From: Lactiplantibacillus pentosus
GTDB lineage: Bacteria > Bacillota > Bacilli > Lactobacillales > Lactobacillaceae
DNA length: 64,000 nucleotides
Direction of reading: 5' to 3'
Assembly (NCBI RefSeq): GCF_003641185.1
Contig: NZ_CP032757.1
Location: 186,001 to 250,000, forward strand
The notes under the pieces were generated by a model. That model saw only the letters and a list, made by a program, of their open reading frames with translations. It made no database searches and was not told the origin of the DNA. A program made the position numbers and the translations under genes. Positions within the stretch are counted from its first letter, which is position 1, and every line of letters begins with the position of its first letter. Positions 42,515 to 55,509 of the stretch are shown here, in pieces.

Positions 42515-42767
42515 CAAAAAATCGTCCCCGTTGCACAATAATGCAACAGGGACGATTGATTAGACCGTGGTACCACCCCAGCTTGAGCCACAATAGGACT
42601 CCACTCACTAGCAGTTAACGGCTCTAGTTGTTATCCGCCGGGCGTACCCGGACCTCTCCTACCGTATTTCATCGAGATTAACCTGATCGGTTCGCAGCAC
42701 CCACCGACTTCCTGACGCACAGTTAATTCGCTACTTGAAAGTAAGATTATCGTTCGTTATTTGAATA
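42515..42767 (-). promoter_or_regulatory. T-box riboswitch, probable Tyr specifier
   Basis: On the minus strand the T-box sequence GGGGTGGTACCACGG (complement of 42565-42579) is followed by a terminator with 16-nt arms at 42520-42535 and 42542-42557 plus T run. Stem I is visible: ATTAAC/GTTAAT with an AGTA motif on the 5' side. The opposite strand reads GAAATACGG; UAC (complement of 42664-42666) is the best specifier, i.e. tyrosine. The specifier reading is manual and less certain than the T-box itself. Confidence 0.9.
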
Positions 42768-52091: not shown

Positions 52092-53261
52092 TTAATCCTG
52101 TTGTAGCAACCGCACCCGAATGACTGCGGGAATCTTCGTCAGTTCGTCGATTAGTTGGGCATGTTGCGGTTGTTGTAAGTCGTCGACATCAATAATCGTA
52201 TAGGCCGTTTGGTGCTTGGCAGCGTTGGCCATCGTCGTGATATTGAGGTTGGCTGCAGCCAGTTTTGCCGTGATTTGGCTCACCATGTTGGGCACGTTCT
52301 GGTGAATGATGGTAAAGCGGTAAGCGGCGTTGAATGGGACGTTTAGGTCCGGCAGATTGATGGCGGCGTGGACGTTACCGGTCTCTAAGTAAGTCATGAT
52401 GGTTCGCGCGGCCTGCGTGGCACCGTTGACCTCGGCTTCTAGCGTTGAGCCACCGATATGGGGGGTGACGGTGACGTCCGGGTTGTCAGCGAGCTGCGGT
52501 TCGCCAAAGTCGGTGTAGTAGTGCGCGATGTGATGTGCGGCGATGGCTGCTAAGGCGGCGGTATTATCCACGATGCCGAGGCGTGAATAGTTGAATAACT
52601 GGACACCAGCGGGCATTGCAGCGAAAGCTTCCGCATTAAGTAAATTTAGCGTGTCCGGATTTTTAGGGACGTGGACGGTGACGAAATCGGCGTGTTTAAC
52701 GGCGTCGGTCAGGGTCGCGGCCCGCTGCACTTGTTTGGCAATATTCCAGGCGGCATCGGCGGATAGGTAGGGGTCATAACCAATCACGTTCATCCCCAGA
52801 TTGAGGGCGGCGTTGGCCACTAGTGAACCGACGTGGCCCAGGCCAATCACAGCCAGCGTCTTACCCGTTAATTCGGAGCCGTTAAACTGGGTCTTGTCAT
52901 GCTCAGTCCGCTGAGAAACGTCCGCCTCAGTGTGCTTCGCTGAATAGTTGGCGGCGGCCATCAAATGGCGAGAAGCGACGATCAGGAGGCCGATAATCAG
53001 TTCCTTGACGGCGTTGGCGTTACTGCCGGGCGTATTGAAAACGGCGGTACCATTCGCGGTTGCTTGGTCGAGCGGAATGTTGTTGACACCGGCGCCGGCG
53101 CGAGCAATTACCTTGAGCGACGTGGGTAGTGTCTCATGGTGCAAGTTGACCGAGCGAATCAGATAGGCATCGGGCTGGTCAGACTGGTTCAGCGCGTAAT
53201 CAGCGGAAAATGTGTTGAGACCGGCTGGGGCGATGGCGTTGTAAGTTTTAATTTGATACAT
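52092..53261 (-). CDS. serA: D-3-phosphoglycerate dehydrogenase with ACT domain
   Basis: The 389-residue enzyme catalyses the first step of serine synthesis. It has the NAD-binding motif VIGLGHVGSLVANAA, VTVHVPKNPDTLNLL, the catalytic-His region TPHIGGSTLEAE and a C-terminal ACT domain (about 315-389, VSQITAKLAAANLNITTMAN) that may bind serine. It follows serC by 30 bp on the same strand and shares its attenuated leader. Confidence 0.92.
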   Translation of the reverse strand: MYQIKTYNAIAPAGLNTFSADYALNQSDQPDAYLIRSVNLHHETLPTSLKVIARAGAGVNNIPLDQATANGTAVFNTPGSNANAVKELIIGLLIVASRHLMAAANYSAKHTEADVSQRTEHDKTQFNGSELTGKTLAVIGLGHVGSLVANAALNLGMNVIGYDPYLSADAAWNIAKQVQRAATLTDAVKHADFVTVHVPKNPDTLNLLNAEAFAAMPAGVQLFNYSRLGIVDNTAALAAIAAHHIAHYYTDFGEPQLADNPDVTVTPHIGGSTLEAEVNGATQAARTIMTYLETGNVHAAINLPDLNVPFNAAYRFTIIHQNVPNMVSQITAKLAAANLNITTMANAAKHQTAYTIIDVDDLQQPQHAQLIDELTKIPAVIRVRLLQQD

Positions 53262-53291: not shown

Positions 53292-54368
53292 TTAATGATG
53301 TTGGGCTTCAAATGCGGCTAAGTAGTCAACGAGGGCTTGAACCCCGGCAACCGGCATGGCGTTATAGAGACTGGCTCGCATGCCCCCAACGGAGCGGTGG
53401 CCCTTTAGATTCAAGAGACCGTGTTGGCTGGCACCAGCGATGACGGCGGCGTCTAGTTCGGCGTTGCCGGTGACAAAGGGCACATTCATCGTTGAGCGGT
53501 CGCTGGCTTTAACGGGGTTCGTGAACAGTTGTGACTGGTCGAGAAAGTCATACAGTAGCGCGGCTTTAGCGTGATTACGTGCTGTCATGGCTGCTAAGCC
53601 ACCCTGTTGTTTGAGCCACTTGAGGACGAGCCCCGCGGCATAGATTGCAAAAACGGGTGGTGTGTTGAACATCGAGTGTTTGTCAGCGAACAGTTGATAA
53701 TCCAGCATGCTGGGGAGCTGTTGGGCGTGGCCAATCAGGTCCTCACGAACGATGACCAGCGTCAAACCAGCAGGGCCCAGGTTCTTCTGAGCGCCGGCAA
53801 AAATCAGGCCAAAATCACTGACGCGGTAGGATTCACCTAAAAAGTTAGAAGACATGTCGGCGACCAGTGGAATATCGCCGGTGGCTGGCAAATCGGTCGT
53901 CATGGTTCCTTCAATCGTATTGTTGGTCGTCAAATGAACGTAGTCGAGGGTTGGATCGAGTGGCTGTTCGATAGTGGGTAGCCGGTCAAAATGGGTGGCG
54001 GCGCTACTGCCGAGGACGGTGACTTTGGTGCCAACGCGTTGGGCTTCGTCGCCAGCCCGTTGTGCCCAGTGTCCGCTATCTAGCAGGCCGATGTGGTGAT
54101 GGTTCGTCGCGAGGTTCAACGGAGCAGCGGTGAACTGCAAGGTCCCGCCACCTTGAAAGAACAGCACCCGGTAGTTATCGGGAATCGCCATTAGGTCCCG
54201 CAAGTCCTGTTCGGCGTCATTGATGACTTGTTCGAACAGGTCGGAGCGATGGGAGATTTCCAAGATACTCATCCCAGAATTCTGAAATGACGGTAACGCT
54301 GCTTGAATTTGGGCAATGACGGGTTGCGGCAAGACCGCTGGACCAGCAGAAAAATTATAAATTGGCAT
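53292..54368 (-). CDS. serC: phosphoserine aminotransferase
   Basis: The 358-residue PLP enzyme converts 3-phosphohydroxypyruvate to phosphoserine. The PLP lysine is K195 in FAGAQKNLGPAG; FSAGPAVLP at the N terminus and RSVGGMRASLYNAM near the C terminus are typical. It is the first gene of serC-serA. A separate serB is not present here. The 410-nt leader encodes a serine-rich peptide and contains a terminator. Confidence 0.94.
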   Translation of the reverse strand: MPIYNFSAGPAVLPQPVIAQIQAALPSFQNSGMSILEISHRSDLFEQVINDAEQDLRDLMAIPDNYRVLFFQGGGTLQFTAAPLNLATNHHHIGLLDSGHWAQRAGDEAQRVGTKVTVLGSSAATHFDRLPTIEQPLDPTLDYVHLTTNNTIEGTMTTDLPATGDIPLVADMSSNFLGESYRVSDFGLIFAGAQKNLGPAGLTLVIVREDLIGHAQQLPSMLDYQLFADKHSMFNTPPVFAIYAAGLVLKWLKQQGGLAAMTARNHAKAALLYDFLDQSQLFTNPVKASDRSTMNVPFVTGNAELDAAVIAGASQHGLLNLKGHRSVGGMRASLYNAMPVAGVQALVDYLAAFEAQHH

Positions 54369-54540
54369 AAAAAATCCTCGCTTTCGATTGTTTAATGGCA
54401 GTTAAACGGCTAATCGTCTGGAATAGGTCGACCTAAGCACATCTCGACAGTTAATCAGCTAGTACTAACGTCGAACCATCATCAGTTCGTGTATCAGGCA
54501 ACCGTGGTGTTTCGCCTGATTAGTCGGTAACAACAAAAAA

Positions 54541-54630
54541 GTCCTCGCAGTCGATTTCGACTACCAGGACGGTTAATGACAATCTGAAGCAATTGCGCCC
54601 GGTAGCGAATGTCTAACATCCGTGCTCGGG
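54541..54630 (-). promoter_or_regulatory. attenuator with terminator, antiterminator and protector hairpins
   Basis: Read on the minus strand. The terminator has arms at 54561-54570 and 54541-54550, an inner GTCGA/TCGAC stem and a TTTTTT run. CTACCGGG (complement of 54598-54605) can pair with CCTGGTAG (complement of 54561-54568), which would open the terminator. The same CTACCGGG can instead pair with CCCGAGC (complement of 54624-54630). The three structures are mutually exclusive, as in ribosome-mediated attenuators. Confidence 0.75.
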
Positions 54631-54649
54631 CTGATTTGCGAACGCAAAA

Positions 54650-54724
54650 TTAGGCCAACACAGATGAGTGCGTAGACCAGGAGGAACTGATATGATATTG
54701 ATTGTTGAGTTGTCGCTGTGCCAT
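54650..54724 (-). CDS. serine-rich leader peptide of the serC-serA operon
   Basis: A 24-residue frame starts at ATG 54724 behind GAAAGGAG and ends at TAA just before the attenuator hairpins. Codons 13-21 read S-S-S-W-S-T-H-S-S: six serines in nine codons, using AGT, TCC, TCC, TCT, TCA and TCT. Such clustering in front of serine biosynthesis genes is the hallmark of a control peptide whose translation senses charged tRNA-Ser. No T-box sequence was found in this leader. Confidence 0.75.
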   Translation of the reverse strand: MAQRQLNNQYHISSSWSTHSSVLA

Positions 54725-54787
54725 AATCAGTTAGACTCCTTTCGACTGACCGGTCATGATTGCCGGTGCTTGAATTGCGTTGGTATT

Positions 54788-54816
54788 AATTTAGCAAGCA
54801 AATTCTGGTTTGTCAA
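54788..54816 (-). promoter_or_regulatory. serC leader promoter
   Basis: TTGACA (complement of 54811-54816) and TAAATT (complement of 54788-54793) have a 17-bp spacer. Transcription would start near 54781, about 57 nt before the leader peptide start. Confidence 0.75.
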
Positions 54817-54885
54817 GCATGTTAATGAGAAAAACCTGTGACATCATCGCTGTAATTAATAATAATCTAATCTTGGAGGCGCACA

Positions 54886-55509
54886 ATGACAACTTTTTAC
54901 GTGGTACGGCATGGTCAAACAACGGCCAATGCGCAAAATCTCAAACAGGGCACGATCAATACTGACATCACACACCTAAATTCAGTTGGTCAGCAACAGG
55001 CCCAAACGCTACACGACGCGTTTGATATCAGTTTTGCGGACCGACTCATTTGTAGTCCACTCGACCGGACACAGGCAACCGCGGCTATTTTGAATGCAGG
55101 CCGTGACTTGCCCGTTAGTACGGATGAGCGGCTGTTGGAAATTTCATACGGCCAGTGGGATGGGCAGGCCAACGACCAACTATTGGCCGCCTATCCGCAG
55201 TATTTTGATCCAATGTTGCAGGACGTCTTACCGAATTACGTCGATGTGGCGACGGATGGCGAGACGTTTATGCACGTGCAACAACGGGTTCAAGCCTTTT
55301 TGACGGCGATGGCCCAGGCCTATCCAGATGAACAACTGATTGTTGTGACCCACGGCTTTACCGTCAAGGCCATGGCGCTTGCGGTGCTCCAACCCAAGGA
55401 CCCGATGAGTCTACCAGAACCCGCCAATACCAGTGTGACTAAGATCGTCGTCGATGCTGTGCACGCGCGTCAGTACTTGGCCTACTACAATCGGCTGCCA
55501 CAGTTCTAA
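54886..55509 (+). CDS. histidine phosphatase family protein (phosphoglycerate mutase-like)
   Basis: The 207-residue protein has the RHG motif with the phospho-histidine His9 (VVRHGQTTANAQNL), a second catalytic region YGQWDGQ and the late His in VVTHGFTVKAMAL. It may be a cofactor-dependent phosphoglycerate mutase-like phosphatase. Because it diverges from serC-serA, a phosphoserine phosphatase role is conceivable (pure inference). GGAGGCG precedes ATG. Confidence 0.85.
   Translation: MTTFYVVRHGQTTANAQNLKQGTINTDITHLNSVGQQQAQTLHDAFDISFADRLICSPLDRTQATAAILNAGRDLPVSTDERLLEISYGQWDGQANDQLLAAYPQYFDPMLQDVLPNYVDVATDGETFMHVQQRVQAFLTAMAQAYPDEQLIVVTHGFTVKAMALAVLQPKDPMSLPEPANTSVTKIVVDAVHARQYLAYYNRLPQF

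Follow-up and report, generated by a model that had tools for sequence, protein, structure and literature searches.

In Salmonella and E. coli, the his operon attenuator combines a leader peptide carrying a run of seven His residues with six RNA arms, A to F. The leader that we describe here, located ahead of serC-serA in Lactiplantibacillus pentosus, shares with it a leader peptide rich in codons of the cognate amino acid, a set of hairpins A:B, C:D and E:F opposed to the alternative helices B:C and D:E, and a stop codon near arm B; it differs from the his system by having Ser instead of His codons, by having few of them instead of a run, and by its occurrence in Lactobacillaceae. In Firmicutes, where T-boxes are common, leader-peptide attenuation has also been described, with a Leu-rich attenuator peptide at the ilv-leu operon of S. 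aureus (PMC5794164) and, in bacilli, with His leader peptides that precede hisZ/hisS* (PMC2965389); these leaders concern other amino acids and other genes and are likened to the serC leader by mechanism alone. T-box control of the serine pathway has the presumed signal, uncharged tRNA-Ser, and the terminator as output in common with the serC leader, but a T-box RNA reads the tRNA directly and needs no leader peptide, and no T-box was found at the serC leader. The serC RNA motif RF00517 of alpha-proteobacteria is likewise found ahead of serC-serA operons and differs in its two-stem structure, which was proposed to hide the ribosome binding site (PMC1273637). According to a study on sinR of B. 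subtilis, UCN serine codons serve there as starvation sensors acting on SinR protein output (PMC3862929); in the serC leader the most conserved codons are also all UCN, and the output is a terminator and not a protein level.

In this study, we analyzed the leader in the window, i.e. the whole stretch of 64,000 nucleotides (genome positions 186001-250000 of a 3.67 Mb genome), and in related genomes. From its anatomy, its conservation and modelled folding we conclude, with a probability of roughly 90%, that serC-serA is under the control of a ribosome-mediated, serine-specific transcription attenuator similar in kind to those of his and trp. The attenuation mechanism as such is known; its serine-specific form appears to be new, since no description of a serine leader-peptide attenuator, nor of the control of the serine pathway in these bacteria, was found in the literature searched, outside of which most subscription papers fell.

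Anatomy of the serC-serA leader

The leader extends on the minus strand from 54816 to 54535, and the operon downstream of it makes serine according to the family-model matches of serC and serA, thereby matching the leader codons (Table 1). The closest named serC, with 98% identity, is that of Lactiplantibacillus plantarum EGD-AQ4.

Table 1. Positions of the serC-serA genes and of the leader elements in the window.
Feature	Position	Strand	Details
serA, phosphoglycerate dehydrogenase family	52092..53261	-	PF02826 and PF00389 over cut-offs; PGDH models below theirs
serC, phosphoserine transaminase	53292..54368	-	TIGR01364 over cut-off
Promoter-like site	54788..54816	-	-35 TTGACA 54816-54811; -10 TAAATT 54793-54788
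Ribosome-binding site AAGGAG of leader ORF	54736..54741	-	11 nt before ATG 54724
Leader ORF, 24 codons, MAQRQLNNQYHISSSWSTHSSVLA	54650..54724	-	stop 54652-54650
Regulatory Ser codons 13-15 and 17 (AGT TCC TCC TGG TCT)	54674..54688	-	Ser conservation in relatives
Hairpin A:B	54653..54678	-	A ~54678-54669, codons 16-19; B ~54664-54653, ORF end
Alternative helix B:C	54617..54664	-	B 54664-54653 with C 54631-54617
Hairpin C:D, anti-antiterminator	54597..54631	-	C 54631-54617, D 54610-54597
Antiterminator helix D:E	54558..54610	-	D 54610-54597 with E 54570-54558
Intrinsic terminator E:F	54535..54570	-	stem 54570-54541, then T6 54540-54535

An earlier note, made from the sequence of the window, had named a consensus promoter and a 24-codon ORF with a ribosome binding site and six Ser codons among codons 13-21; a promoter-like site and the ORF were found there. 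The promoter-like site has a spacing of 17 nt, a TG upstream of the -10 element and 10 of 12 consensus matches; it is one of four sites of such quality in 700 nt on both strands, for which shuffled sequences gave a mean of 1.3 (sd 1.2), and TTGACA with the 17 nt spacing precedes the leader in several relatives, too. The Ser codons are numbers 13, 14, 15, 17, 20 and 21. Among 46 short ATG ORFs of the window that are preceded by a Shine-Dalgarno (SD) sequence (31 on the plus and 15 on the minus strand), the leader ORF is the single one with at least five Ser in nine codons; dinucleotide shuffles of the leader yielded an ORF with at least five Ser in nine codons in 7 of 3000 cases and one with six in 1 of 3000. 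The stem of the terminator E:F has a folding energy of -19.9 kcal/mol and contains an internal mismatch, and it was not listed by a simple consensus terminator scan.

The gap between terminator and serC (54534-54369) comprises about 170 nt in the window and in locus L002 and about 25-60 nt in most relatives; it is likewise longer in L022, L028 and L010. Divergent from the leader, on the plus strand at 54886-55509, a histidine-phosphatase-family protein (PF00300) is encoded, for which the NCBIfam PspA phosphoserine phosphatase model gave 88.8 bits (cut-off 350) and the alpha-ribazole phosphatase model a higher score of 106.9 bits, also under its cut-off. A histidine-phosphatase gene adjoins serC in loci of Lactiplantibacillus, Companilactobacillus, Lentilactobacillus and Lacticaseibacillus hulanensis, and in Limosilactobacillus gastricus (L186) a homologue with 38% identity immediately precedes serC in the same orientation. 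As judged from sequence, the protein is a candidate phosphoserine phosphatase for serine synthesis.

Conservation of the leader and of its serine codons

For the comparison with relatives, a search for serC gave matches in 20 of 21 genomes from the genus and in 173 of 397 from the family. Of the 131 serC genes with the best scores, 130 (L001-L130) were examined for their upstream DNA; G314, a match without start, was omitted. Among these 130 Lactobacillaceae loci, 98, from 11 of 16 genera, have the leader ahead of serC; counts across loci do not represent independent events, the loci being related. An ORF scan with an SD-like sequence before the leader start as criterion found 96 of them, and the leaders of L052 (TTG start) and L010 (farther upstream) were added. 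In the relatives, the N-terminal half of the leader peptide is highly variable and the C-terminal Ser cluster far less so. The 32 serC loci with no detectable leader are those of the genera g3 (3), g23 (6), g31 (14), g34 (7) and g37 (1), plus L074 of g6; for most of them 700 nt upstream were read, so that a leader located farther away, like that of L010, may have escaped detection. Upstream of serC in L073 (g34), tandem units of about 100 nt with a ribosome binding site and a start-like ATG were observed.

An RNA structure model including the terminator, R1, whose first codon is the one that follows the Ser pair, matches 96 of the 130 loci. The matches score at least 45 bits in 88 loci and 20.8-34.4 bits in eight, the latter being near noise level and retained because they coincide with a leader ORF; L086 and L096 have a leader ORF and no R1 match. 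In all 96 matches, an in-frame leader stop follows 12-33 nt after the R1 start. A script reported a terminator between ORF and serC in 94 of 96 leaders, eight of which were judged wrong by eye, and these eight as well as the two leaders for which none was reported are matched by R1, which includes the terminator, at 45.5-95 bits.

In its own genome, R1 has a single strong match, which is at serC (82.4 bits; next best 28.9). In an order-wide search of 395 genomes, 56 had matches at E<=0.01 under stricter filters, by which weak relatives may be missed, and in the 14 genomes with at least 47 bits the match is located directly ahead of serC without exception. With flanks of 2.5 kb, or shorter ones near contig ends, R1 matches 18 of 80 named loci, namely loci of Lactiplantibacillus, Lentilactobacillus, Companilactobacillus, Lacticaseibacillus hulanensis and one uncultured Lactobacillus bin; no R1 match was obtained among the named loci of Ligilactobacillus, Liquorilactobacillus, Limosilactobacillus gastricus, Enterococcus, Vagococcus and Streptococcus. 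The possibility that the element has spread to genes other than serC was considered and rejected: a Ser-rich short ORF is absent at 16 of the order-wide R1 loci below 35 bits (L152-L167) and at seven weak loci of the own genome (L132-L138), and with these 23 loci inspected the weak matches were taken as noise.

Codons -2 and -1, which lie outside R1, encode Ser in 94 of 96 loci each, and codon +1, inside R1, does so in 94 of 96 as well; an anchored position table of the codons is partly circular, as its anchor demanded Ser or Phe, and the R1-based counts are therefore preferred. With the 88 strong R1 matches the frequency is 87/88 at each of the three positions, and among the 65 loci not used in building R1, Ser is found at -2, -1 and +1 in 63, 64 and 63 loci. 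Ser is replaced by Phe in L052 (-2), L105 (-1) and L041 (+1), and L103, a weak R1 match, is apparently out of register. The third bases at -2, -1 and +1 differ from the commonest one in 16, 15 and 14 of 96 loci and are nearly always Ser-synonymous, and over a seven-codon stretch, 347 Ser codons occur in frame versus 64 and 42 in the other frames. All 188 Ser codons at -2 and -1 are UCN, as are all those at +1, and position -3 has 41 UCN versus 14 AGY codons; in the 39 window ORFs with at least 200 codons, UCN makes up 57% of the Ser codons, and UCC (10.7%) and UCU (8.1%) are the two rarest. The uniformity of the Ser codons may partly stem from common descent and, at +1, from structure. Under serine starvation of B. 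subtilis, ribosome density rose at UCN codons but not at those of the AGC/AGU type, as stated in the sinR study (PMC3862929).

Conservation of the codons might also be explained at the nucleotide level, if TCCTCC were kept for pairing with the leader's own SD sequence (GGAGG), so that the leader would regulate its own translation and Ser would be a by-product. TCCTCC is indeed the commonest hexamer (68 of 96 loci), and the fold of the window leader pairs AGGAG with the TCCTCC stretch. However, 28 of 96 loci carry another hexamer and 25 of these still encode Ser-Ser, with TCTTCC, TCCTCT, TCATCA, TCCTCA or TCATCC; TCATCA (4 loci) loses most of the complementarity to GGAGG and yet codes for Ser-Ser. 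We regard this explanation as very unlikely, while SD pairing of TCCTCC and Ser-codon attenuation could act together.

Two RNA states and the proposed switch

Side-by-side reading of the relatives revealed six arms, A-F, with related sequence. The terminated state consists of A:B, C:D and E:F together, the alternative state of B:C and D:E. The three hairpins and the U-tract terminator of the earlier note are present, but its statement that the hairpins are mutually exclusive was wrong: A:B, C:D and E:F coexist, and it is with the alternative helices B:C and D:E that they are incompatible, not with one another.

Covariation was assessed in an alignment (A1) of 31 loci chosen for spread, from which hard ones (g6, g13, L059, L067, L089) were omitted. 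In the terminated state 92.1% of cells are paired, with two-sided changes in 17 of 27 pairs, and in the alternative state 87.5% are paired, with two-sided changes in 16 of 22 pairs. None of 500 shuffles reached the number of two-sided changes for either state. Shuffles of this kind can be surpassed through relatedness of the sequences alone, but when the partner was shifted by 1-3 columns, pairing fell to 31-48% (terminated) and 33-49% (alternative). By helix, two-sided changes were found in 7/9 pairs of C:D, 9/10 of E:F, 9/14 of B:C and 7/8 of D:E. Helix A:B, with 94.0% of cells paired and a two-sided change in 1 of 8 pairs, rests on conservation, not on covariation.

A duplex test was carried out with 86 of the 96 leaders and a between-genus swap of partners as comparison; left out were L027, L031, L036, L041, L045, L047, L057 and L063, in which the terminator was mispicked as judged by eye, and L054 and L055, for which none was picked. 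For D:E, the own partners gave a mean of -18.4 kcal/mol versus -12.3 kcal/mol with those of other genera and were stronger in 84 of 86 leaders; for B:C, the values were -17.9 versus -14.0 kcal/mol and 80 of 86. The control pairs B:E (26/86) and B:F (36/86) showed no excess of own over between-genus pairing. What the sequences show of the attenuator is its anatomy, its conservation, the covariation of both states and the Ser-coding constraint. The note had seen clustered Ser codons before a terminator as the signature of ribosome-mediated attenuation and had suggested looking in relatives for conserved Ser codons with covarying hairpins; this comparison supported it, with the leader and its Ser cluster kept in 98 of 130 loci and both states covarying.

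The note had also pointed to a difficulty, namely a protector arm about 30 nt downstream of the last Ser codon. The masked arm is A in codons 16-19 and its partner B lies at the end of the ORF, by which the distance difficulty is removed. The Ser codons and the stop are placed such that stalling at codons 13-15 would free B and completion would cover it; this refers to placement, the modelled folding being mixed by stage.

For the modelling, growing transcripts were folded at equilibrium, the nucleotides under an assumed ribosome footprint being kept from pairing. At the stage where E is newly complete, a stall at Ser13, 14 or 15 gives B:C plus D:E and a stall at Ser17 mainly D:E, while a ribosome at Ser20, Ser21 or the stop gives C:D; B:C plus D:E is also favoured with no ribosome at this stage. 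When D has just been made and the ribosome is stalled, C:D is favoured with 8.4-9.1 expected pairs versus 1.6-2.3 for B:C, and after completion of F, E:F prevails whatever the state of the ribosome. Since equilibrium folding is mixed across the stages, the switch would have to be kinetic, i.e. depend on order and speed of synthesis.

In the proposed switch, with seryl-tRNA plentiful, the ribosome would run to the leader stop and cover B, C:D and E:F would form, and transcription would end at the T-run. With seryl-tRNA short, the ribosome would wait at Ser codons 13-15 and cover part or all of A; B would then pair with C and leave D for E, and with D:E formed the terminator would not be made in time, so that serC-serA would be transcribed. 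If the leader were not translated, A:B, C:D and E:F would form in order and transcription would end. We infer the timing, this fate of untranslated transcripts and serine as the cellular signal. Codons 20 and 21 (+4 and +5) were rejected as sensors: a ribosome located there would cover B and lead to C:D, and Ser is poorly kept (15 of 93 and 53 of 86 leaders), with +5 being within helix B:C.

A stall might instead be caused by the nascent chain itself, if the sequence ending in SS(S)WST were an arrest peptide similar to TnaC. In 67 of 96 loci the residue after the Ser pair is Trp, and in 86 of 96 there is a Thr two codons later; but the Trp position is also occupied by Leu, Arg, Lys, Gln or Gly (29/96), the GG of the Trp codon and the Thr codon sit in arm A, whose pairing accounts for both, and the N-terminal half of the leader varies widely. 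An arrest peptide is considered extremely unlikely. T-boxes are common amino acid sensors in the genome (39 matches, 11 over the cut-off), which speaks for the idea that the leader is a T-box or a metabolite- or protein-binding RNA with Ser codons by chance. Against it stand the Ser-coding constraint, the lack of a T-box motif in up to 700 nt before the 130 serC genes and the lack of an Rfam match at the leader of the window, and we regard it as practically negligible.

T-boxes and the leader as putative serine sensors

No Rfam family matched at gathering score in the window or at E up to 10 in 54300-54900, where the covariance model of RF00517 likewise gave no match; for T-box (RF00230), neither a model nor a sequence match was found at the leader. 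A regular expression for the T-box motif had no hit in up to 700 nt before the 130 serC genes, and no T-box at gathering score was detected by Rfam in 20 named loci. The Rfam scan of 20 relatives at E up to 1 gave two sub-threshold matches. One is a trpB motif (RF04312, 43.6 bits, gathering 59) beside serC in L122, at 482-580 on the plus strand of that locus, with serC on the other strand; the second, NsiR1 (RF02399) over the L091 leader with 23.9 bits (gathering 39, E 0.61), was taken as chance.

T-box matches are located directly before both serS genes of the genome (517521-517712 and 1039772-1039957), with 74.0 and 64.1 bits and below the gathering score of 93. In the alignment of one of them, UCC stands at what we take to be the specifier place. 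Serine seems to be sensed by T-boxes for charging and by the leader peptide for synthesis. A further T-box match in the window (42545-42759, minus strand, 60.2 bits, below gathering score) has a specifier that, read by eye, looks like UAC for tyrosine, and the ORF behind it (42455-41016) resembles a membrane transporter by the look of its sequence.

Taken as a whole, we consider it rather probable that the leader is the first serine-sensing leader-peptide attenuator, that it is old in much of the Lactobacillaceae, that its key codons are all UCN, and that it exists beside serS T-boxes for the same tRNA. If this is true, one genome reads one tRNA via two unrelated RNA sensors, one for synthesis and one for charging, and serine would be a further amino acid read by leader peptides. 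With T-box matches before both serS genes, the serS T-boxes and the serC leader would make it possible to compare, within one cell, two sensors that respond to one tRNA, and the all-UCN choice at -2 and -1 bears on the idea of codon-specific tRNA charging. The regulation of serA in most Firmicutes was described in 2021 as unknown, save for some that use T-boxes and others that use CodY (PMC8002221); for many lactic acid bacteria, the serC leader would provide a testable answer.
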